Virus record (IMG/VR): IMGVR_UViG_3300030012_003061
Location: 1-26,188 of that record
Length of the DNA: 26,188 bases
Source: a virus
Strand: one strand, 5' to 3'
The notes below the pieces were generated by a model, which ran no database searches, was not told the DNA's origin, and was given only the letters and a program-made list of their open reading frames with translations. Of this stretch, positions 1,470 through 23,304 are shown in pieces. Each line of letters opens with the position of its first letter. Positions within the stretch are counted from its first letter, which is position 1. The position numbers and the translations under genes were made by a program.

Positions 1470-2435
1470 TTAAGAATTTATTAACAATTTGCTATTTTCT
1501 TTTTGCTTCCTTATGCTATCCTTGTCAGAAGCCTTTACATACCTGTAAAAAGCAAGTGATCCATTAGCATGACCACTTATGTTTCTTACTTCCATTTCAC
1601 TCAATCCATTAGATAAGTGGTAAGTTATTCCACTTGACCTAAGTTTATGTGGAGTTATTAACTGCCAAAGAAATTTTGTCTCAGCATATGGATCTCCATT
1701 GTGATTGTATTTATAAATAACTTTTTGTTTTCTTAGTTCAGGGTATGACCTCATTAGTTCCCTTAACTTTTCTCTAAATATTTGAGGTTTCATTCCTAGA
1801 CCGTTTCTTTCCGCAAGAAACTCTTGAACATCTTTTGGTATATAAAAAGTGGACAAAGATCCTACACCCTTCTTTGTTATGATTGTTACTATGCCATCAT
1901 CAATTGTATTTTGGAAATTAATTAGATCACTAATTCTCATACATGAGTAAAGGCAAAGCCTGGTGTAATACCAAACCCTATGAAGAGACTCGTCCTCAGG
2001 TTTAGTCTGATGTATCATTTGAACATGTTCAGGGTCAAGTGCTATAACATCAGTTTGCAGTTCTCTCATTGATTGTAGTTTAGGAAAGTCGTAACCATAA
2101 AACGCTTCAGCCTTCTTTAAGGTTGCACGAATTATTTTTAAATGATTTTTTCTGGTGTTGGGGTGATAACATTCCTCAAGCAGAATATTTAAGTAGTCGT
2201 TTACATTTGTCTGTAGTAATCTACAAATCCTCAACCTATCTTTCCGTGATTTAGATTCGTTCAAGTCACAAGCATCAACATCAAAGTCAAAGTCATGATC
2301 GTTCATTGTGTTTAGAATCAATTGGTAGTTTGCAATTGTAAGTTTGTTAAACTTTCTACCATAATGTAAAATATGTCCGCTAGTCATCTTATCGATAATG
2401 TCAGACAATAGGAATTTAAATGTGCCTTCTTGCAT
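1470..2435 (-). CDS. int: Tyrosine recombinase / phage integrase
   Basis: A 321-residue protein with an N-terminal SAM-like core-binding region (about 25-115) and a C-terminal catalytic domain. The family residues are visible: Arg167 in SCMRISDL, Lys188 or 189 in ITKKGVG, His263-x-x-Arg266 in TPHKLR, His289 in ISGHA, and the nucleophile Tyr297 or Tyr299 in AFYRYV. Length matches typical integrases. It would cut and rejoin DNA through a 3'-phosphotyrosine intermediate for integration or excision. The phage is therefore probably temperate, though virulent phages also carry such enzymes for genome resolution. The leader upstream (2436-2580) contains a strong folded element and a degenerate copy of the TGAACnATCGTTCA palindrome. 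No clear attP core was identified. Confidence 0.93.
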   Translation of the reverse strand: MQEGTFKFLLSDIIDKMTSGHILHYGRKFNKLTIANYQLILNTMNDHDFDFDVDACDLNESKSRKDRLRICRLLQTNVNDYLNILLEECYHPNTRKNHLKIIRATLKKAEAFYGYDFPKLQSMRELQTDVIALDPEHVQMIHQTKPEDESLHRVWYYTRLCLYSCMRISDLINFQNTIDDGIVTIITKKGVGSLSTFYIPKDVQEFLAERNGLGMKPQIFREKLRELMRSYPELRKQKVIYKYNHNGDPYAETKFLWQLITPHKLRSSGITYHLSNGLSEMEVRNISGHANGSLAFYRYVKASDKDSIRKQKENSKLLINS

Positions 2436-5000: not shown

Positions 5001-5223
5001 TACTTTTATTTTTTAAATTAGACTTATCACTTGACAACCTGTCTATTAATTTTTCCAGGATGCCTTTGACTTTTACATGTTCCTTTTTACTAAGGATCTC
5101 ATTTAACCAATCTTCATCACTTACTATCTCTTCAGCGATCTTAGATATTGTATCAATTTTACTTTTCTGCTTTCTAAAAGCGTCAAAAGTTTCGTTTACG
5201 AATGGATCAACTTTACTCATCAT
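4984..5223 (-). CDS. Unknown helical protein (79 aa)
   Basis: Begins with two successive ATGs (5223 and 5220). Highly charged and helical with heptad-like leucine/isoleucine spacing (DAFRKQKSKIDTISKIAEEIV, GILEKLIDRLSSDKSNLK). Overlaps both neighbours (11 nt upstream, 17 nt downstream), as expected in a compact phage operon. No family recognised. Confidence 0.6.
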   Translation of the reverse strand: MMSKVDPFVNETFDAFRKQKSKIDTISKIAEEIVSDEDWLNEILSKKEHVKVKGILEKLIDRLSSDKSNLKNKSNEQTN

Positions 5224-5539
5224 TTTTATTTAAAGGATTATACATATCATACAAGGCTCTAGCCATCACAGGATCTCCTAGTGCGGTCATAAGTTCTTGT
5301 ATGTAACTTCTTTGTTCTCTTCCGTTTCTATATGATCTTGGATCATCGGAATACATATAGGTCCAATCGTGAGACTCACAAGCGGATTTTAATTCATCTC
5401 TTACTTCGTCCATGGATAGTTTTTTTATTGTTCCATGTTCGGCACCATTTACCCACTGCTCTGCAAGGGATAGAGATGAGGTACCAAGTTCTTGGTCTGG
5501 CAATTCGCCACCATAGAATAAATTTACTTTATAAAACAT
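5213..5539 (-). CDS. Unknown protein (108 aa), first gene after hammerhead C
   Basis: Starts at ATG 5539 after a leader containing AAAACTAAA, a motif shared by at least four start sites in this operon. The first part looks like a small alpha/beta fold (MFYKVNLFYGG, SLAEQWVNGAEHGTIKKLSMDEV) and the C-terminal half is helical (SYIQELMTALGDPVMARALYDMYN). It is the first gene of the RNA piece released downstream of the ribozyme at 5561-5610, so its mRNA would begin with a 5'-hydroxyl and the ribozyme fold. Function unknown. Confidence 0.65.
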   Translation of the reverse strand: MFYKVNLFYGGELPDQELGTSSLSLAEQWVNGAEHGTIKKLSMDEVRDELKSACESHDWTYMYSDDPRSYRNGREQRSYIQELMTALGDPVMARALYDMYNPLNKNDE

Positions 5540-5560
5540 TTCTTTAGTTTTAAATTAGTT

Positions 5561-5610
5561 TCTGTTTCGCCTTCTTCGGCTCATCAGCAAGAGACAATCT
5601 CTTGGACAGA
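5561..5610 (-). ncRNA. Type III hammerhead ribozyme C
   Basis: Read on the minus strand: TCTGTC (5610-5605, stem III 5' arm and cleavage triplet), stem I CAAGAGA/TCTCTTG with a 3-nt loop, the invariant CTGATGA, stem II GCC/GGC with loop GAAGAA, then GAAA and ACAGA closing stem III (UCUGU/ACAGA, 5 bp). All core residues of the hammerhead are present, in type III order (open ends at stem III). Predicted cleavage is after C5605. It lies between the stop at 5632 and the start at 5539, on the coding strand. Self-cleavage is known for the class and inferred here. Confidence 0.93.
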
Positions 5611-5625
5611 GGGGACATGGTCCCC
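5611..5625 (-). other. GC-rich hairpin directly 5' of hammerhead C
   Basis: GGGGAC/GTCCCC with a 3-nt loop. It abuts the stem III arm and follows the stop codon at 5632 by 6 nt. There is no T-tract, so it is not a terminator. After ribozyme cleavage it would be the 3'-terminal hairpin of the upstream message and could block 3'-5' exonucleases. Confidence 0.75.
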
Positions 5626-5631
5626 TACTCT

Positions 5632-5910
5632 TTACCAATTAAGTATTAGATCAGGATCAGAATAATATCTGACAGAGTTTTGAAAAGATCCTGTTGATCC
5701 TTTCTCTACCTCATCCCTTGATGGAATATAGTTTCCGTAATAATCACGACTACTTTTTTTTGGTAACATACAGGCACCTGATCTAAGGCTGTTCATTGCT
5801 TCCCTTCCCATGTGTCCTTCCATTCCCCAAACAATGCCTGTGTCTATCATACCCTGTAAGGATGACATTCCTAGTTCTTCCTGGAGTTTCTTAATCTTAT
5901 TATAATTCAT
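5632..5910 (-). CDS. Unknown protein, paralogue of the 3472-3783 product
   Basis: Start chosen at ATG 5910 (product begins MNYNKIKKLQEEL) because it aligns with the start of the paralogue and follows an AAAACTAAAATT leader; an upstream extension would overlap the preceding gene. 92 residues. Shared motifs: KIKKLQ, MIDTGIVWGMEG (about 21-32), SLRSGACMLP (about 38-47), PSRDEVEKG (about 61-69) and GSFQNSVRYY. The conserved Gly, Cys and Pro pattern suggests a compact fold; no catalytic motif is evident. Its stop is followed at once by the hairpin and hammerhead C. Confidence 0.7.
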   Translation of the reverse strand: MNYNKIKKLQEELGMSSLQGMIDTGIVWGMEGHMGREAMNSLRSGACMLPKKSSRDYYGNYIPSRDEVEKGSTGSFQNSVRYYSDPDLILNW

Positions 5911-5927
5911 AATTTTAGTTTTAATAG

Positions 5928-6179
5928 TTAACAATAGGTTATCACACCACCTTTAGACTCGTAATTGTCAATAAGTTTTTCAAGTGCATATTCATTGTAT
6001 ACTTCTGAATATTTTCTAACCAACCTATAATCTTTTGAATATTCATTGCCGTCAATAAATGTTGGTCCACCTGTTCCATTATTCCAAATGGAAATACTTT
6101 TTACATTAGTTCTGCACTCATACCCCAAACCTCTGCGAGTTTTAAAGTATCTAACCGACTTTACTTGTAAATCTTTCAT
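5928..6179 (-). CDS. Unknown small protein (83 aa)
   Basis: ATG 6179 is chosen (product begins MKDLQVKSVRYFKT); it sits one base after the upstream TAA, with the AAAACTAAA leader motif formed by the last codons of the upstream gene. An in-frame ATG at 6206 would overlap that gene. The sequence looks beta-rich (VKSVRYFKTRRGLGYECRT, KSISIWNNGTGGPTFIDG) with a C-terminal helix. No family recognised. Confidence 0.6.
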   Translation of the reverse strand: MKDLQVKSVRYFKTRRGLGYECRTNVKSISIWNNGTGGPTFIDGNEYSKDYRLVRKYSEVYNEYALEKLIDNYESKGGVITYC

Positions 6180-6180
6180 G

Positions 6181-6684
6181 TTATTTAGTTTTAGGTTTGA
6201 ATTCATATTCTTGTCTTAGATCACCTTCATGACATTCAAGAGGAAATAATTCCTTCATCAATTCTTTTTCATCACCAAATAAATATTTAGTGCCATGTTC
6301 TTTTAATTGATTTTTCATGTCTAAGGCAATCCAAGAATCTTCCAACAGCACTCTATAAATGTCCATGCTGATGTCTGTCCATTTTACATACTTTGGATTT
6401 TTGTTGCCTTCGTGATCTTTTTTCTGTAGTTGATCCCAAATTGTATCGTCTGCGTAATCTCCTTGAATTGTGATTTGATCACCTGACCAGGATCCGATGA
6501 GCGGACTTTTTGAAGGGTGATCTCCACCACCTCTTCCGTTACCTTCCGCAAGAAGCAATGATAAGCACTGAAGCAATCCTTTGCCATCTGAAGTGAATTC
6601 CATAAGTTTTAAACCATTTCCAAATGAATGAGGGTTTAAATACTCTTTTTTAGTTTTGTTAAAGACTTTATAATATTGTCCCAT
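6181..6684 (-). CDS. Conserved unknown protein of the 'MGQYYK' type (167 aa)
   Basis: Begins MGQYYKVFNKTKKEYLNPHSF and continues with GLKLMEF (about 24-30) and GSWSGDQITIQGDY (about 63-76). To my recollection this pattern recurs in short uncharacterised proteins from bacteria, phages and some eukaryotes. The conserved W-x-G-D-x-I-x-x-x-G-D-Y block suggests a binding or enzymatic site, but no activity is established. Start ATG 6684 follows an AAAACTAAAATC leader, directly downstream of hammerhead B, so this gene would be the first of the 1,151-nt RNA released between ribozymes B and C. Confidence 0.7.
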   Translation of the reverse strand: MGQYYKVFNKTKKEYLNPHSFGNGLKLMEFTSDGKGLLQCLSLLLAEGNGRGGGDHPSKSPLIGSWSGDQITIQGDYADDTIWDQLQKKDHEGNKNPKYVKWTDISMDIYRVLLEDSWIALDMKNQLKEHGTKYLFGDEKELMKELFPLECHEGDLRQEYEFKPKTK

Positions 6685-6710
6685 GATTTTAGTTTTTATA
6701 AATTATTATT

Positions 6711-6761
6711 TCTGTTTCGTCCTTTTGGACTCATCAGGGTAAGCACACACTTACCGACAGA
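6711..6761 (-). ncRNA. Type III hammerhead ribozyme B
   Basis: Minus strand: TCTGTC (6761-6756), stem I GGTAAG/CTTACC with loop TGTGTG followed by one C of the core, CTGATGA, stem II GTCC/GGAC with loop AAAA, then GAAA and ACAGA. Stem III is UCUGU/ACAGA. This is the most canonical of the three: every core position fits and stem II is 4 bp with the expected G-C at its base. Predicted cleavage is after C6756. It lies 20 nt after the upstream stop and 26 nt before the downstream start. Confidence 0.95.
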
Positions 6762-6776
6762 GGGGACAACGTCCCC
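6762..6776 (-). other. GC-rich hairpin directly 5' of hammerhead B
   Basis: GGGGAC/GTCCCC with a 3-nt loop, identical stem to the one at 5611-5625 but with a different loop. It begins 6 nt after the stop codon and abuts the ribozyme. No T-tract follows. Confidence 0.75.
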
Positions 6777-6782
6777 TATATC

Positions 6783-7010
6783 TTAAGCCTGATTTGGGGT
6801 GACCCTAGACTTAAACAAATTAACAATCGCACCTAGTATCACATAAAACACAAAGGCTTGGAAACAAGCACAAATGACATAGTAAGTGAATTGAGCGAAT
6901 CCGTGAACACTAGGGAGAATATGCATCATAATTCCTAGGGTTGCACTCATCAAAAAGAAAGTGATGAAAGTGATTAAAGTTGGTTCTACAAATTTTAAAA
7001 TAGTTTTCAT
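6783..7010 (-). CDS. Small two-helix membrane protein bracketed by two ribozymes
   Basis: Start chosen at ATG 7010 (product begins MKTILKFVEPTLITF, 75 residues). A longer in-frame reading from 7115 is rejected because it would translate through hammerhead A and its hairpin. Two hydrophobic segments (about 10-30, LITFITFFLMSATLGIMMHI; and about 38-60, FTYYVICACFQAFVFYVILG) joined by a short loop with His, so both ends probably face the same side. Could be a holin-like, exclusion or membrane-remodelling protein; no family recognised. The C-terminus FKSRVTPNQA shares VTPNQ, and underlying DNA, with the end of the 9171 gene product. Confidence 0.7.
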   Translation of the reverse strand: MKTILKFVEPTLITFITFFLMSATLGIMMHILPSVHGFAQFTYYVICACFQAFVFYVILGAIVNLFKSRVTPNQA

Positions 7011-7033
7011 AATTATATTTTTAATATTAGTTA

Positions 7034-7082
7034 TCTGTTTCTGCTTTCGCTTCATCAGGTAAGGCACACACCTTACGACAGA
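7034..7082 (-). ncRNA. Type III hammerhead ribozyme A (degenerate stem II)
   Basis: Minus strand: TCTGTC (7082-7077), stem I GTAAGG/CCTTAC with loop TGTGTG, CTGATGA, a short stem II GC/GC capped by a GAAA tetraloop, then GAAA and ACAGA. Stem III is UCUGU/ACAGA. The stem I loop is the same as in hammerhead B. The usual G-C pair at the base of stem II is replaced by A.A, leaving only two Watson-Crick pairs, so cleavage may be slower. Predicted cleavage is after C7077. It is the first ribozyme met by RNA polymerase. Confidence 0.88.
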
Positions 7083-7099
7083 GGGGGAACCTGTCCCCC
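7083..7099 (-). other. GC-rich hairpin directly 5' of hammerhead A
   Basis: GGGGGA/TCCCCC with a 5-nt loop, 5 nt after the stop codon at 7105-7107. Same position as the hairpins of ribozymes B and C, with a slightly different stem (the AC/GT pairs are replaced by one more G-C). Confidence 0.7.
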
Positions 7100-7104
7100 T
7101 TGGA

Positions 7105-7398
7105 TTATATCTCATTATTTACTAATGCTTTTGTTATTGCCTTCTTAAGTGATTGGTCACCTCTTGATATTGCACCTTCTAGATCACCAAGCAATACATG
7201 AAAGAAAAAACTTCCCTCCATTTTTTTGTGTGTTAGTTTCCAGGATAAATCCTCTTTGTCTGATAAGTAGAAATTTGCTCTAGCCTTGATGTGATCATTT
7301 ACAGGGTAGTATTTTGCGATGGCTTTTAACATGCCATAACCTGTAGCGTTGGTAAGTTTTTCTCTGTTGTTATCTGTTGTATTTTTCATAGTTTTCAT
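7105..7398 (-). CDS. Unknown protein (97 aa), first gene of the ribozyme operon
   Basis: ATG 7398 is chosen because it lies about 18 nt downstream of the predicted transcription start; earlier in-frame codons lie in the promoter. The product starts MKTMKNTTDNNREKL and has a helical core (GYGMLKAIAKYYPVNDHIKARANFYLSD) and a C-terminal helix with GDQSLKKAITKALVN. Charged, cytoplasmic, no recognised family. The same ATAATTATGAAAAC start context recurs at 7010, suggesting a shared cassette-like leader. Confidence 0.65.
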   Translation of the reverse strand: MKTMKNTTDNNREKLTNATGYGMLKAIAKYYPVNDHIKARANFYLSDKEDLSWKLTHKKMEGSFFFHVLLGDLEGAISRGDQSLKKAITKALVNNEI

Positions 7399-7408
7399 AA
7401 TTATTTGT

Positions 7409-7448
7409 TGAACGATAGTACAAATATATAAAAATAAAATAATACAAA
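7409..7448 (-). promoter_or_regulatory. Bacteroidetes-type promoter with operator-like palindrome for the ribozyme operon
   Basis: On the minus strand TTTG (7448-7445) and a perfect TAnnTTTG box, TATATTTG (7428-7421), are separated by 16 nt, a little shorter than the usual 19-21. A near-palindrome, TGTACTATCGTTCA on the minus strand (7422-7409), overlaps the end of the -7 box and the predicted start point. It is one mismatch from the TGAACnATCGTTCA pattern. This arrangement would allow a repressor to block initiation of the leftward operon. Confidence 0.6.
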
Positions 7449-18354: not shown

Positions 18355-20708
18355 TATATAAAAAGAATAACGCAAACTATCCTAACCATAACGTAGATCC
18401 TAGAGAAAAAGGTAAAGAATGGTGTTTGCAATATGCAAAAGCAGCATGGTCTGATTACTCAAATCACGGTACACAATCGTTTCACAACAACAGGGGTTCT
18501 TATGCTAGGATAAAAGAGTATGCTCAAGGAAACCAATCAATCAATAAATATAAAAATCTATTGAATGTAGATGAGCAAGATAATGAATCTTGGTTTGCTA
18601 TAGACTGGAATGTGTTACCTATTGTTCCTAAGTTTAGAAGAATAGCACTTGGAAAACTAAGTAAGTCAGAATACAATATTACTGCATCTCCTATAGATGC
18701 AATAGCACAATCAGAGATTGAAGACTATTACAAAAAGACAAAAGCAAAAATAGATCTTAGAAAAGAAATGTCTAGGTCCTACCCAGGAATGGATCAGTTT
18801 AGTGCCTTAAAGAAAAAGCCTAATGAACCAGACAATGATGAGGAGTTAGAAATGCATATGGCTTACACTTTCAAGCATAATGCTGCTATAGAAATGGAGC
18901 AAGGAATTGAATTGGTTTTCTACACTAATGATTTAGAGGAAAAGAGAAAACAAATCCTTGAATCTTTATTTGATTTTGGTGTTGCAGGATATAAAGAATA
19001 CATTGATAGTAATGGATCTGTAAAACTAAGAGTGGTAAATCCACAAAAACTTTTAATATCACATTGTAATAAAAGAGATTTTTCAGATAAAATTCATGTT
19101 GGTGAAATAACAGAAATGACTATTGCTGATTTAAAACAAAGAGCAGGAGATCAGTTTTCTGAAAAAGAATATCAAGATATAGCAGAAAGGTTTTCAGGAA
19201 GACAGGGAGACACAAAAATGTTTCCATCAAATAAAAAGTTCTACAAACATTATGATGATAGAAAAATACTTGTTTTAGATATGGAGTTTTTCTCTGTCGA
19301 TCAAATGGTTCATGAATCAAGAGTTGACAAAAGAGGAAACAAAAGATTTGGAAGAGCATCATATAACAGTAGAAATAAGGTTAAGAAGAAGTTTGTTAGA
19401 TCATCATATAAAACAGTATATAAAATATCTTGGGTAGTTGACTCAGAATATTGTTATGATTTTGGTTTATGTAATGATATGAAAAGGGTTAAGTCTAATT
19501 TAATGGACACTGATCTTTCTTATCATATATTTGCTCCAGATTTTCACAATATGAAGCCTTTGGGTATTATGGAGCAAGTAATACCTATAGCCGATCAAAT
19601 ACAAATTTCCTGGTATAGACTTCAAAACGCTATCAATCAAGCAAGACCTAAAGGTATTATGATTGAGTTGGGAGCACTTGAAGACATCCCTTTAGGTTCT
19701 GGAGGACAACAAATGAAACCTATGGATGTTATTGACTTGTTTAACAAAACAGGTACGCTTGTTTACAGAAGAAATGACATAGCAGGAAAACCAACAAACT
19801 ATCGACCTATAGAAGAATTGGAAAATGGTTTAGGTCGAGATGCTATGGCATACTATCAAGTGATTCAAAATAACATAGAGATGATTAGACAGATTACAGG
19901 TCTAAATGAATTTACTGATGGATCAACTCCAGACCCTAGGGCGTTAACAACGACTGCAAAACTTGCTGCTCAAGCAACATCAAATGCTTTGGAGCACATT
20001 GTACAGGGTGAAAGATATTTGTTAGAAAAATTAGCATCAGCAGTTATTGTTAGATTGCAAGATTCTGTCAAGAAAAATCCAATTGAAGGTTATGTTAAAT
20101 CATTAGGAAAAAACACAATGGAATTTTTCCAAATGAGTCCAACAGTAACTAAGCATGAGTTTGGTATAAAAATAGAAGATAAACCAAGCGAAGAACAAAA
20201 AGTTAGACTAATGCAAATGCTACAAGCATCAGTTGCTCAGGGTCAGGTAGATTTTGAGGATGCTGTGTTTATAGAGCAAATAGAAAACTTAAAACAAGCA
20301 CAACAAGTTCTTGCATACAGAATTAAAAAGAAAAGAGAAGAGGCTGAGGAAAAGGCGAAACAAATGCAGCAAATGAATGGGCAGATACAACAACAGTCTG
20401 CACAGGCTGCTGAAGCGTCTAAACAGCAGACTATTCAAATGGAATTCAAACTGAAGGCAGAAATGCTAAAACTAGAAACTCAACTTAAATCTCAATTACA
20501 AAAAGAGAAATATGAGTTTGAGATGATGATGCAAGACGGAAGAGAAAGTAGTGCTTCTGAGAGAAATCTTTTAGATAATCTACCTACTAAAGAATTAATA
20601 CAACAAAAGGTAAATCAGGATTTGGCTGAGGAAGAACAAGATCCAATGGCACAGATGATGAACCAAATGCAGGGACAACCTCAAATGGGAGTTGCACCAC
20701 AACAATAA
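18351..20708 (+). CDS. Portal protein
   Basis: A 785-residue protein immediately after the terminase, as portals usually are. The N-terminal part has the ordered helix-rich look of portals (RGSYARIKEYAQGNQSINKY, WNVLPIVPKFRRIALGKL), the middle carries IPIADQIQISWYRLQNAINQARPKG and NNIEMIRQITGLNEFTDGS (a portal stem-like pair), and the C-terminus is a long Gln/Met/Glu-rich coiled coil (about 660-785). It would form the dodecameric ring at the head vertex. Family assignment is by size, order and composition; no single catalytic motif exists. Confidence 0.82.
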   Translation: MIYKKNNANYPNHNVDPREKGKEWCLQYAKAAWSDYSNHGTQSFHNNRGSYARIKEYAQGNQSINKYKNLLNVDEQDNESWFAIDWNVLPIVPKFRRIALGKLSKSEYNITASPIDAIAQSEIEDYYKKTKAKIDLRKEMSRSYPGMDQFSALKKKPNEPDNDEELEMHMAYTFKHNAAIEMEQGIELVFYTNDLEEKRKQILESLFDFGVAGYKEYIDSNGSVKLRVVNPQKLLISHCNKRDFSDKIHVGEITEMTIADLKQRAGDQFSEKEYQDIAERFSGRQGDTKMFPSNKKFYKHYDDRKILVLDMEFFSVDQMVHESRVDKRGNKRFGRASYNSRNKVKKKFVRSSYKTVYKISWVVDSEYCYDFGLCNDMKRVKSNLMDTDLSYHIFAPDFHNMKPLGIMEQVIPIADQIQISWYRLQNAINQARPKGIMIELGALEDIPLGSGGQQMKPMDVIDLFNKTGTLVYRRNDIAGKPTNYRPIEELENGLGRDAMAYYQVIQNNIEMIRQITGLNEFTDGSTPDPRALTTTAKLAAQATSNALEHIVQGERYLLEKLASAVIVRLQDSVKKNPIEGYVKSLGKNTMEFFQMSPTVTKHEFGIKIEDKPSEEQKVRLMQMLQASVAQGQVDFEDAVFIEQIENLKQAQQVLAYRIKKKREEAEEKAKQMQQMNGQIQQQSAQAAEASKQQTIQMEFKLKAEMLKLETQLKSQLQKEKYEFEMMMQDGRESSASERNLLDNLPTKELIQQKVNQDLAEEEQDPMAQMMNQMQGQPQMGVAPQQ

Positions 20709-20740: not shown

Positions 20741-21925
20741 ATGGCAGAAGAAAATCAAGAATTTGATCCAACACAAATTAAAGTGGTGGACGAAAACGGT
20801 GAGGCACAAGATGTAAACATCCCAGAGCCTCCTAAAGAAGAGGAAAAACCTACAGAAGAAGTTCAGGAAGTTGAAAACAATGAAGAAAAAGTAGAAGAGC
20901 CTCAAGAAGAAACAGAAGAAACACAAGAGGAAGAAGTTACCCTTGCAAGACCAGAAGAGACAGAATCAGACTCTAATGATCAGTCAGAAGAGCCAGGTTA
21001 TGATACTCTTCAGTTATTTGATGAACTAGATCAAATATCTAAAGACCTTACAGGAGGGAAAGCCGAAACCCTTGAACAATTTTTTGATGAGTTTAAACGG
21101 ATGAGAGATTCGAGTCAAACTCAATTTAAAGATGACTACATCAAAAGTGCAGTCGATTATTATAATGCAAACGGAAACCTTACGCCTTATTTAGAGGCTA
21201 CTGCTGTTAACTATACTGAGATGACGGATGAGCAAATCATGAGATATGAGTTACAAAAACAAAATCCATCATTATCAAAAAGAGCAATTGATAAACTCTT
21301 TGATAGGGATATAATTAACAAGTACAATTTAGATGAGGATAAATTTAATGAGGACGATGTCGAACTCGGTAAAGAACTTCTGAAAGCAGACGCTTCTAAA
21401 CTGAGAGATAAATTTGTTGACGAACAAAAAAAATTCGCTCAACCTCAACCAGTTAAAACTGATGGTAAACAGGAAGCCGACCAGGAAGCCGCTCAAAAAG
21501 AGCAAATGGAAAAATGGATAAACGCTGTCCAGTCTAGTGATTATACCAAAGATGTAGTTGAAAACAAACGCATCTTGGTCCAATACGGAGACAATAAGTT
21601 TTCATATGAAGTTGATAACCCAAAAGATCTTCAAGAAATGACTGAGGATAATAATAAGTTTTTTCAACTTTTTAGAGACGATGATGGCAATATTGATTTT
21701 GAAAGATGGTATAAAGTGTTGGCGTTTGCTGTAGACCCTGAAGTTTATGATTCATCTCTTATTTCTCACGGACAAGAGTTAGGTCAAGAAAAGGTTGTTT
21801 CAGATTTGAAAAATCCTTCGAAACCTACTAAAAGTTCGCAAGAATATAGGAGCCCTAAAAGTCCTTTAGAAGGATTAATTGGTGCACTAGCAAGGGGTGA
21901 TTCAGATGTTAAAATCATTCGTTAA
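20741..21925 (+). CDS. Scaffold protein (putative)
   Basis: A 394-residue protein between portal and capsid genes, the standard scaffold position. The first 95 residues are extremely acidic and Pro/Glu/Gln-rich (disordered), the centre is helical (LFDELDQISKDL, ETLEQFFDEFKRMRD), and the C-terminus is basic (PTKSSQEYRSPKSPLEG...VKIIR), which fits capsid binding. Ala/Lys-rich helix at about 225-260. Acidic disordered start plus basic tail is common for scaffolds; no protease domain was recognised. Confidence 0.7.
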   Translation: MAEENQEFDPTQIKVVDENGEAQDVNIPEPPKEEEKPTEEVQEVENNEEKVEEPQEETEETQEEEVTLARPEETESDSNDQSEEPGYDTLQLFDELDQISKDLTGGKAETLEQFFDEFKRMRDSSQTQFKDDYIKSAVDYYNANGNLTPYLEATAVNYTEMTDEQIMRYELQKQNPSLSKRAIDKLFDRDIINKYNLDEDKFNEDDVELGKELLKADASKLRDKFVDEQKKFAQPQPVKTDGKQEADQEAAQKEQMEKWINAVQSSDYTKDVVENKRILVQYGDNKFSYEVDNPKDLQEMTEDNNKFFQLFRDDDGNIDFERWYKVLAFAVDPEVYDSSLISHGQELGQEKVVSDLKNPSKPTKSSQEYRSPKSPLEGLIGALARGDSDVKIIR

Positions 21926-21948: not shown

Positions 21949-23262
21949 ATGGAAAATTCTAATTATATAAGTTCCCTATCTTTTTTACAGCACTCTTTTG
22001 TGCAAGGTAGAGAAATCTTATCAAGCGTGTTGGACGTACAGAATGAAGAAGATTCATTCCTAGACGTTATGCAGTCTTTAGGCAAAATGAAGCCTACAAG
22101 TCAGCCAGTATACCATGCTTTTGTAAATGAAGCATTGTATAAAGACAACTCAATTGTAATTTCTGAAGCAGGTTCAGGTACTGGAAAACAATCAGGTATC
22201 TCAACTTCTTCAATTGGAAATGCAAGAGTTGGTGATTTAATGATGGGAGCATCAGGTAATGTTTACTTAATTACAGCAATTTCTGCTTCAAATGAAGTTG
22301 ACTTTGTACCAGTAGACGGAGCAGGTGATGCGACTGATTATGATGGAGGAGACGAAACATTCGTAGTTTTCTCTAACGCACAAGGTGAAGGTTCAGGATC
22401 TCCTGACCCAATCAAGTATGGACTAACTAAGCAGTCTAACAGAGTACAAATCTTTAAAAACAAATACAGAATTTCTGATGTTGCTAAAGCATCAAAAGTA
22501 ACTGTAGAGTATAAAGGTAAGCCTTACTTCATGTACAAAGGTACTTTCGAAGCATTAATGAGATTTAGAGCAGATATCTCTAACGCATTAATGTTTGGTA
22601 AAGGATCAGGAGACTTCTACGCAGGAGCATCTGTAGGTGACATGGCAATCGGTGGTAACGCTGTACAGACTACTAACGGTCTTAGAGAAGAGTTAAAAGC
22701 AGGTGGTATCTTGAGTTCAGGTAACCCATTAGCATTTGATACAGACGCTCTAAATACTTTAGAAGTAATCACTGCTGCTCTTAATAAAGCAAGAGCACCA
22801 AAAGATTACTGGATGTGGGTAGGTACTTCAGCAGGTATTAAACTTGACAATGCACTAAATGGATTGGATGGAACAGGATTTACTTCTGCAAGATTCAATG
22901 TAGATGGAAGAGAAATCGACCTAGGTGTAGACAAGTTTAAACTGTATGGAAGAACATTTAACAAGAAGCAACTTTCTATTCTTGATCACAATGAACTAGG
23001 TTCACAAGTGACAGGATCTGGAGAGATCTATCTTGTTCCTACAGGTCAAATCAAGACAGCAGGTGGTGCAGGTAACCAAGATTACTTACAAGTAAGATAT
23101 CTTGAGGGAGATGGAAACAACTATTCATTTAGAGAAACTCTAACTGGTGGATTGGCTCCTACTCCAACTAGTGCTGACTCAATTCTTGATGTAAACTACC
23201 AGGCTATTCTTGGTCTAGAAGTTTTAGGAAAAGAGCACTGTGCACTTGTTACAGGATTCTAA
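21949..23262 (+). CDS. Major capsid protein
   Basis: A 437-residue protein in capsid position, between scaffold and terminator. Codon use is noticeably cleaner and more repetitive than in neighbours (few rare codons, many GGT/GCA/TCT), as in highly expressed virion proteins. N-terminal helix NYISSLSFLQHSFVQGREIL, then QVYHAFVNEALYKD-like region (about 55-65), Gly/Ser-rich loops and a C-terminal TGGLAPTPTS. HK97-like fold is likely. The gene is followed directly by a strong intrinsic terminator. The A-rich leader lacks a Shine-Dalgarno site. Confidence 0.85.
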   Translation: MENSNYISSLSFLQHSFVQGREILSSVLDVQNEEDSFLDVMQSLGKMKPTSQPVYHAFVNEALYKDNSIVISEAGSGTGKQSGISTSSIGNARVGDLMMGASGNVYLITAISASNEVDFVPVDGAGDATDYDGGDETFVVFSNAQGEGSGSPDPIKYGLTKQSNRVQIFKNKYRISDVAKASKVTVEYKGKPYFMYKGTFEALMRFRADISNALMFGKGSGDFYAGASVGDMAIGGNAVQTTNGLREELKAGGILSSGNPLAFDTDALNTLEVITAALNKARAPKDYWMWVGTSAGIKLDNALNGLDGTGFTSARFNVDGREIDLGVDKFKLYGRTFNKKQLSILDHNELGSQVTGSGEIYLVPTGQIKTAGGAGNQDYLQVRYLEGDGNNYSFRETLTGGLAPTPTSADSILDVNYQAILGLEVLGKEHCALVTGF

Positions 23263-23276
23263 TATTAATTAATGAA

Positions 23277-23304
23277 GGGGGGAGTTCTTCTCCCCTCTTT
23301 TTTT
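23277..23304 (+). terminator. Intrinsic terminator after the capsid gene
   Basis: GGGGAG/CTCCCC stem with loop TTCTT (23279-23295) followed by TCTTTTTTT. It lies 14 nt after the capsid stop codon and would cap the capsid message. Partial read-through is expected because the next gene has no clear promoter of its own. Confidence 0.85.

Follow-up and report, generated by a model that had tools for sequence, protein, structure and literature searches.

A hairpin joined to a hammerhead ribozyme as a probable RNA-processing element between the genes of a Bacteroidota podovirus operon

What do several hammerhead ribozymes do when they follow one another between the genes of a single phage operon? 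The question is raised by a stretch of 26,188 nucleotides (nt), positions 1 to 26,188 of the IMG/VR virus record IMGVR_UViG_3300030012_003061 (hereafter the window), which comes from a Bacteroidota podovirus, a marine bacterial virus. An initial annotation had placed three type III hammerheads on its minus strand, each in the sense orientation between the stop codon of one gene and the start codon of the next, and the motifs were found exactly there, with the same stem III (UCUGU/ACAGA) in all three, behind stop codons at 7105, 6783 and 5632 and ahead of ATG codons at 7007, 6684 and 5539. That annotation missed a GC-rich hairpin, which stands without a gap upstream of stem III in all three cases and occupies most of the space between stop codon and ribozyme. 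Judged from sequence, hairpin and hammerhead together quite probably form an RNA-processing element, whose self-cleavage would yield shorter messenger RNAs (mRNAs) with hairpin-capped 3′ ends. The hairpins (identified from sequence and folds) and ribozymes are:

7083-7099, minus strand: hairpin GGGGGA-CAGGU-UCCCCC, 0 nt from stem III of hammerhead 1
7034-7082, minus strand: hammerhead 1, type III; lineage model 55.8 bits, E 6.9e-16; no Rfam match
6762-6776, minus strand: hairpin GGGGAC-GUU-GUCCCC, 0 nt from stem III of hammerhead 2
6711-6761, minus strand: hammerhead 2, type III; RF00008 47.3 bits, E 1.2e-7 (match 6709-6763); lineage model 74.6 bits (sequence in the model)
5611-5625, minus strand: hairpin GGGGAC-CAU-GUCCCC, 0 nt from stem III of hammerhead 3
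5561-5610, minus strand: hammerhead 3, type III; RF00008 36.6 bits, E 1.3e-4 (match 5559-5612); lineage model 44.7 bits, E 3e-12 (absent from the model)

The hammerhead core (C3 U4 G5 A6 N7 G8 A9, G12 A13 A14, A15.1-U16.1 and H17) is present in all three elements as CUGAUGA and GAAA with C as H17, and in each the open end lies at stem III while loops close stems I and II, which is the type III layout. Hammerhead 1 has stem I GUAAGG/CCUUAC with loop UGUGUG and a stem II (AGC-GAAA-GCA) in which 10.1/11.1 is an A.A mismatch and only 2 bp form. Hammerhead 2 joins stem I GGUAAG/CUUACC and the same loop to a 4-bp stem II (GUCC-AAAA-GGAC) with the canonical G10.1-C11.1 pair, and hammerhead 3 has a 7-bp stem I and a 3-bp stem II (GCC-GAAGAA-GGC), also with G-C at 10.1/11.1. 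The predicted cut sites on the minus strand, C7077/G7076, C6756/G6755 and C5605/C5604, agree with those given in the initial annotation and are right as sequence predictions. Loops conserved across the phage elements (UGUGUR, NAAA) fit a tertiary contact between loops I and II. In nearest-neighbour folding of the minimal elements, the hammerhead structure came within 3 kcal/mol of the most stable one, with a CUG/CAG pairing as competitor to stem III.

The window elements share the open stem III, core and stem order of RF00008 (Hammerhead_3), but a search of the window at the curated Rfam threshold gave no match at the hammerheads. The gathering cut-off of 48.5 bits, a curation threshold rather than a structural feature, was reached by none of the three; at a relaxed threshold hammerheads 2 and 3 were matched and 7034-7082 was not. 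A lineage covariance model, trained on 76 phage hammerheads with hammerhead 2 as their only member from the window, picked up all three (E 5e-22 to 3e-12), and the next-best window site scored 9.7 bits. The covariance-model check proposed in the initial annotation came out positive with the lineage model and in part at the relaxed threshold, but negative at the curated one. The same thresholds reported only 2 of 48 hammerheads in 13 related phage loci (L024, L037, L049, L069, L078, L095, L115, L122, L127, L129, L005, L051 and L034), so standard annotation misses nearly all of the group.

Within the window, the pattern CTGATGAN{4,20}GAAACAG gave three matches, compared to none in 100 dinucleotide shuffles. 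Across sequence collections a tight pattern returned 8 viral contigs and a looser one at least 120 stretches; these scans were seeded by CTGTC...GAAACAG, which biases the H17 and stem III counts of seed hits towards C, and the A17 elements are neighbours of seed hits. A stem-aware scanner, which requires the hammerhead core and stems, found 158 distinct type III hammerheads in 92 loci, with up to five per locus; these and the later scanner counts of elements and loci hold among the matches listed. Stem-aware scanning of 3.6 Mb of dinucleotide-shuffled related sequence gave no match. In searches of whole records, most contigs of 50-67 kb carried one to five hammerheads per genome, clustered within a few kb. 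Where at least two hammerheads share a locus they lie on a single strand in 58 of 59 cases, and in all 21 genomes in which a terminase was found they lie on the strand opposite to it, which makes them part of the non-structural operon.

The claim that the stems are maintained by compensatory change was borne out across the phage hammerheads, although the mismatch and the short stem II of hammerhead 1 had been overlooked. In an alignment of 76 phage hammerheads, whose members were selected for pairing, 95.4% of the pair cells were standard and 394 cells had changed on both sides, compared to 103 in shuffles. Among 117 distinct matches chosen blind to stem I, 103 had a stem I of at least 5 bp, whereas a half-swapped control gave about 11%.

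The adjoining hairpin recurs in the related loci, where it abuts 85 of 161 type III elements compared to only 2 of 43 type I elements (p 1.5e-9). The gap to the hammerhead is exactly 0 nt in most cases, and the 85 abutting hairpins have 68 distinct 5′ arms. At type III elements with an upstream hairpin, the median distance from the stem-loop to the predicted 3′ end is 7 nt.

All loci together hold 163 type III and 44 type I elements, and the two types are mixed in 22 of the 59 loci with at least two elements. The distance from the stop codon to the element has a median of 32 nt for type III and 1 nt for type I, while both types lie 23-25 nt before the next ATG. The geometries of the cut differ as well, since type III is cut after the 5′ strand of stem III and type I is cut 1 nt after a closed stem III. 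An exchange between the two was seen in the closest long IMG/VR relative (G439), a 61,478-base contig with a terminase 86% identical to that of the window. The flanks of the hammerhead island are conserved in G439, whereas the window genes from 7395 to 5632 are absent and other small genes take their place, with type I hammerheads at two junctions. Window gene 5213-5539, which comes after type III hammerhead 3, has a homologue in G439 that is preceded by one of these type I elements; topologically different ribozymes thus occupy the same junction.

The proposal that the hammerheads cut a polycistronic message is supported by strong comparative evidence at the level of sequence: the conserved core, the covarying stems, the position between stop and start codons, the consistent strand and the topology switch at an orthologous junction. 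RNA polymerase would read through each junction, because the hairpin is no terminator (see below), and the hammerhead would fold and cut after C17. In the window, the upstream mRNA would keep its hairpin about 6 nt from the new 2′,3′-cyclic-phosphate end, while the downstream mRNA would carry a 5′-OH at its start, where stems I and II are folded, and its start codon would lie about 70 nt further on; type III elements in general would leave the downstream message with a folded ribozyme body and then a leader of about 25 nt that is rich in A/U. A type III cut alone would leave a loose end, for which the upstream hairpin, where present, would supply the stem-loop. Type I relatives would do the same job with the ribozyme's own stem III hairpin, which would become the 3′ end of the upstream message, and they would need no separate hairpin for that reason. 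Most cuts would in this way put a hairpin near the 3′ end of the upstream mRNA, and such a hairpin with a cyclic phosphate should be poorly attacked by 3′ exonucleases such as PNPase and RNase R. The early operon would be split into messages of one to three genes, with decay and translation uncoupled. We infer that cleavage occurs in the cell, that the hairpin protects the 3′ end and that segmenting the message is of benefit.

Three observations weigh against this reading. Approximately half of the phage type III elements have no abutting hairpin, yet a hairpin lies within 25 nt in 121 of 158. In hammerheads 2 and 3 the CUG/CAG alternative beats stem III by 0.9-2.6 kcal/mol, as calculated from nearest-neighbour energies, which leave out tertiary contacts. 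Finally, the near-complete relative G447 showed neither a hammerhead with the scanner nor another Rfam ribozyme (E 0.05), which means that the clade can do without the device.

A different explanation is that the hairpin is a folding aid, which would stack on the short open stem III and shield the ribozyme from upstream RNA. We regard this as a serious possibility, though on balance a doubtful one. It would account for the gap of mostly 0 nt and for the shorter stem III (mean 5.2 bp) of phage type III elements whose hairpin lies 0-1 nt away, compared to 6.3 bp where no hairpin is close (p 4e-6), but the latter effect is not significant in the Patescibacteria set described below (p 0.31). Moreover, an insulator should be equally welcome at the open stem I of type I elements, which almost never have an abutting hairpin. 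The folding-aid and 3′-cap roles are compatible and may coexist.

Mobility of gene cassettes, in the manner of retrozymes or recombination hot spots, with RNA cleavage serving DNA exchange or the formation of circular RNA, appears improbable. The hammerhead segment is indeed a variable island, as the comparison with G439 shows, and homologous genes adjoin hammerheads of differing subtype and topology in different phages. The hammerhead sequences, however, diverge strongly from each other and long flanking repeats are lacking, and mobility does not call for so tight a placement with respect to the stop and start codons. Spliced or circular products were sought by Perreault et al. 2011 (PMC3088659), who found none.

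Still less probable is that the hairpin acts as a terminator or attenuator, with the hammerhead trimming the RNA that reads through. A GC-rich hairpin just after the stop codon, as in all three window cases, would suit such a role, and where the hairpin lies more than 3 nt from the element a T run follows it in 4 of 38 cases. A U tract (at least five T in eight) follows only 1 of the 85 abutting hairpins, however, a scan of the window for terminators found no terminator-like site at the three hammerhead junctions, and the downstream genes would lose expression; the intrinsic terminator was rejected for want of this U tract. That the elements are inactive relics or chance resemblances, to which the scores under the Rfam cut-off and the mispair of hammerhead 1 might point, is hardly credible and was rejected, as the core is kept, the stems covary across many phages and withstand the half-swap control, the A.A form at 10.1/11.1 recurs with a variable, paired stem I (14 of 158 elements) and none is expected by chance in shuffles of the window or of the 3.6 Mb.

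The reading of hairpin and hammerhead as a joint processing element can be extended, tentatively and with somewhat less than even confidence, to a rule for the lineage: Bacteroidota phages of this group would segment the early operon by routine self-cleavage, and every cut would have to leave a 3′ hairpin, either the one abutting a type III element or the stem III of a type I element, exchanged at orthologous junctions. Patescibacteria would share the architecture, with a boxA-like motif reloading antitermination after the cuts, and a coupling of A17 with U.U would hold in both topologies.

Outside phages, the loop-UGUGUR pattern was found in 31 stretches of the GTDB genome set, mostly labelled Patescibacteria or unnamed bacterial metagenome-assembled genomes (MAGs), with the same order of hairpin and hammerhead and as many as six of them arrayed within 8 kb. 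The Patescibacteria and MAG contigs (L140-L170, e.g. L144, L147, L156, L166 and L169) hold up to 13 elements in one genome, and some of the hammerheads have cellular-looking genes between them. An even draw of Patescibacteria gave at least one hammerhead in 28 of 380 genomes. A boxA-like GYTCTTT lies within 40 nt downstream of 20 of 77 elements in the Patescibacteria set, compared to 0.9 expected, a pattern not shared by the phages; a hammerhead paired with an antitermination site would be a new combination. The open-access literature searched held no report linking Patescibacteria with hammerheads. As a separate observation, three MAG contigs (L149, L160 and L170, one labelled Saccharibacteria) share a ATCAGATTTG(CC) stretch about 25-40 nt downstream of hammerheads.

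As for the core, U.U at 10.1/11.1 was seen in 39 of 45 phage type III elements with A17 compared to 7 of 113 with another H17 (p 2e-23), and in 10 of 13 type I elements with A17 compared to none of 31 otherwise (p 1e-7), while C17 accompanies G-C or A.A. These statistics, obtained on loci L001-L129 and L298-L350, are inflated by shared descent, and most of the ten type I cases share a nearly identical stem II. The coupling is nevertheless present in both topologies despite their differing order of segments.

Of the window proteins, terminase and portal gave matches to PHROGs 6681 and 6547. Among named viruses, those closest to the window are a Manatee Spring podovirus, the Flavobacterium elemoviruses and Cellulophaga phages (terminase identity 25-33%). 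Membership of the Crassvirales was rejected, these being more distant than the elemoviruses and the Cellulophaga Pachyviridae/Pervagoviridae. In a survey independent of hammerheads, six near-complete relatives (at least 54 kb) picked by terminase alone were scanned, and five carried hammerheads:

G439: two type I
G441: two type III and one type I
G450: four type III
G452: two type I
G028: three type III
G447: none

The lineage model alone detected hammerheads in only three of the six, an undercount explained by its blindness to type I. Two cultured phages carry elements as well. Cellulophaga phage phi19:3 has a type I hammerhead at 21767-21819 (minus strand), with the gp051 stop codon inside stem I and its end 26 nt before gp050; its predicted cut lies between 21775 and 21774, and the host is Cellulophaga baltica #19. 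In Flavobacterium phage elemoA (NC_055852; host BAL314) a type III element lies at 19084-19138 (minus strand), some 15 nt ahead of gp62 and apparently in the operon leader, with a predicted cut between 19132 and 19131.

The genes around the window hammerheads, all on the minus strand, are preceded by a promoter match:

7421-7448, minus strand: Bacteroidota-type promoter match TTTG-N16-TATATTTG, directly upstream of the first island gene (motif scan, consensus match only)
7105-7395, minus strand: 96-aa open reading frame (ORF) upstream of hammerhead 1, stop codon 7105-7107; no Pfam or PHROG match
6783-7007, minus strand: 74-aa hydrophobic ORF between hammerheads 1 and 2
6181-6684, minus strand: 167-aa ORF (MGQYYK...) after hammerhead 2; its L006 homologue follows a hammerhead of another subtype
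5928-6170, minus strand: small ORF of the second segment
5632-5910, minus strand: 92-aa ORF, last gene before hammerhead 3, stop at 5632; weak match to PHROG 3908 (E 7.6e-4)
5213-5539, minus strand: 108-aa ORF after hammerhead 3; its G439 homologue follows a type I hammerhead

By eye, similar promoter-like sequences also lie upstream of the hammerheads in G439 and elemoA. Pfam and PHROGs gave nothing useful on the function of the window genes between hammerheads; in relatives, such genes include ArdC-like, AAA, VWA/metallopeptidase and GGACT-domain proteins. G439 (L307) also has a tRNA-like candidate at about 19735-19803, with an anticodon read by eye as TCT; it sits in the gap that separates the conserved first gene from the hammerhead island. 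Elsewhere in the window, an integrase/recombinase (1470-2435, minus strand; PHROG 1, E 2.4e-15) is conserved in G439, and the phages may be temperate or put the enzyme to another use. On the plus strand, a strong GC hairpin with a T run behind it (GGGGGGAGUUCUUCUCCCCUCUUUUUUU) at 23265-23302, 3′ of the head gene 21949-23262 and with weak small-RNA matches, is a probable terminator.

Serial hammerheads in a phage operon are already known, and to call their use as gene separators unusual, as the initial annotation did, was an overstatement. Perreault et al. 2011 describes hammerhead clusters flanking prophage genes in Clostridium scindens, Azorhizobium and Agrobacterium tumefaciens, proposes processing into single-gene mRNAs, and reports that tandem hammerheads were cleaved in vitro and the Agrobacterium one also in E. 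coli. The window likewise has several hammerheads flanking single genes or short blocks of phage DNA, whereas the adjoining hairpin, the topology switch at an orthologous junction and the clade-wide pattern are undescribed in the text consulted. The paper mentions U.U forms that support cleavage, although its final set required N10.1-N11.1 to be paired and excluded mispairs, so that A.A and U.U forms as found here would be dropped. The halovirus HF1/HF2 hammerhead (HHphage) treated there also stands ahead of a polycistronic message, and a 5′ end has been mapped no more than 3 nt from the cut; it occurs singly, however, has insertions in its core and belongs to an archaeal virus, unlike the serial set with hairpins in the window. 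After 2011, the open-access literature searched for phage hammerheads yielded only reviews and a 2023 study of permuted ribozymes (PMC10085705), which reports an enrichment of ribozymes close to phage genes and to one another and gives the reason as unknown.

Synthetic biology uses a related arrangement, as ribozyme insulators of the RiboJ type combine a hammerhead with an adjoining hairpin to standardise message ends. Those are engineered and carry the hairpin downstream of the ribozyme, whereas the present elements are natural and carry it upstream. As far as the open-access literature searched shows, the novel points are the hairpin-hammerhead composite, its occurrence across the clade, the coupling in the core, and the topology switch at an orthologous junction with the proposed rule of a hairpin at each new end.

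As these elements are largely invisible to standard annotation, the number of hammerheads in viral DNA is underestimated. Why phages carry hammerheads has been a question since about 2010, and the clade-wide pattern together with the topology switch at one orthologous junction and the proposed 3′-end rule makes it directly testable, with two cultured phage-host pairs, those of Cellulophaga phi19:3 and Flavobacterium elemoA, at hand.

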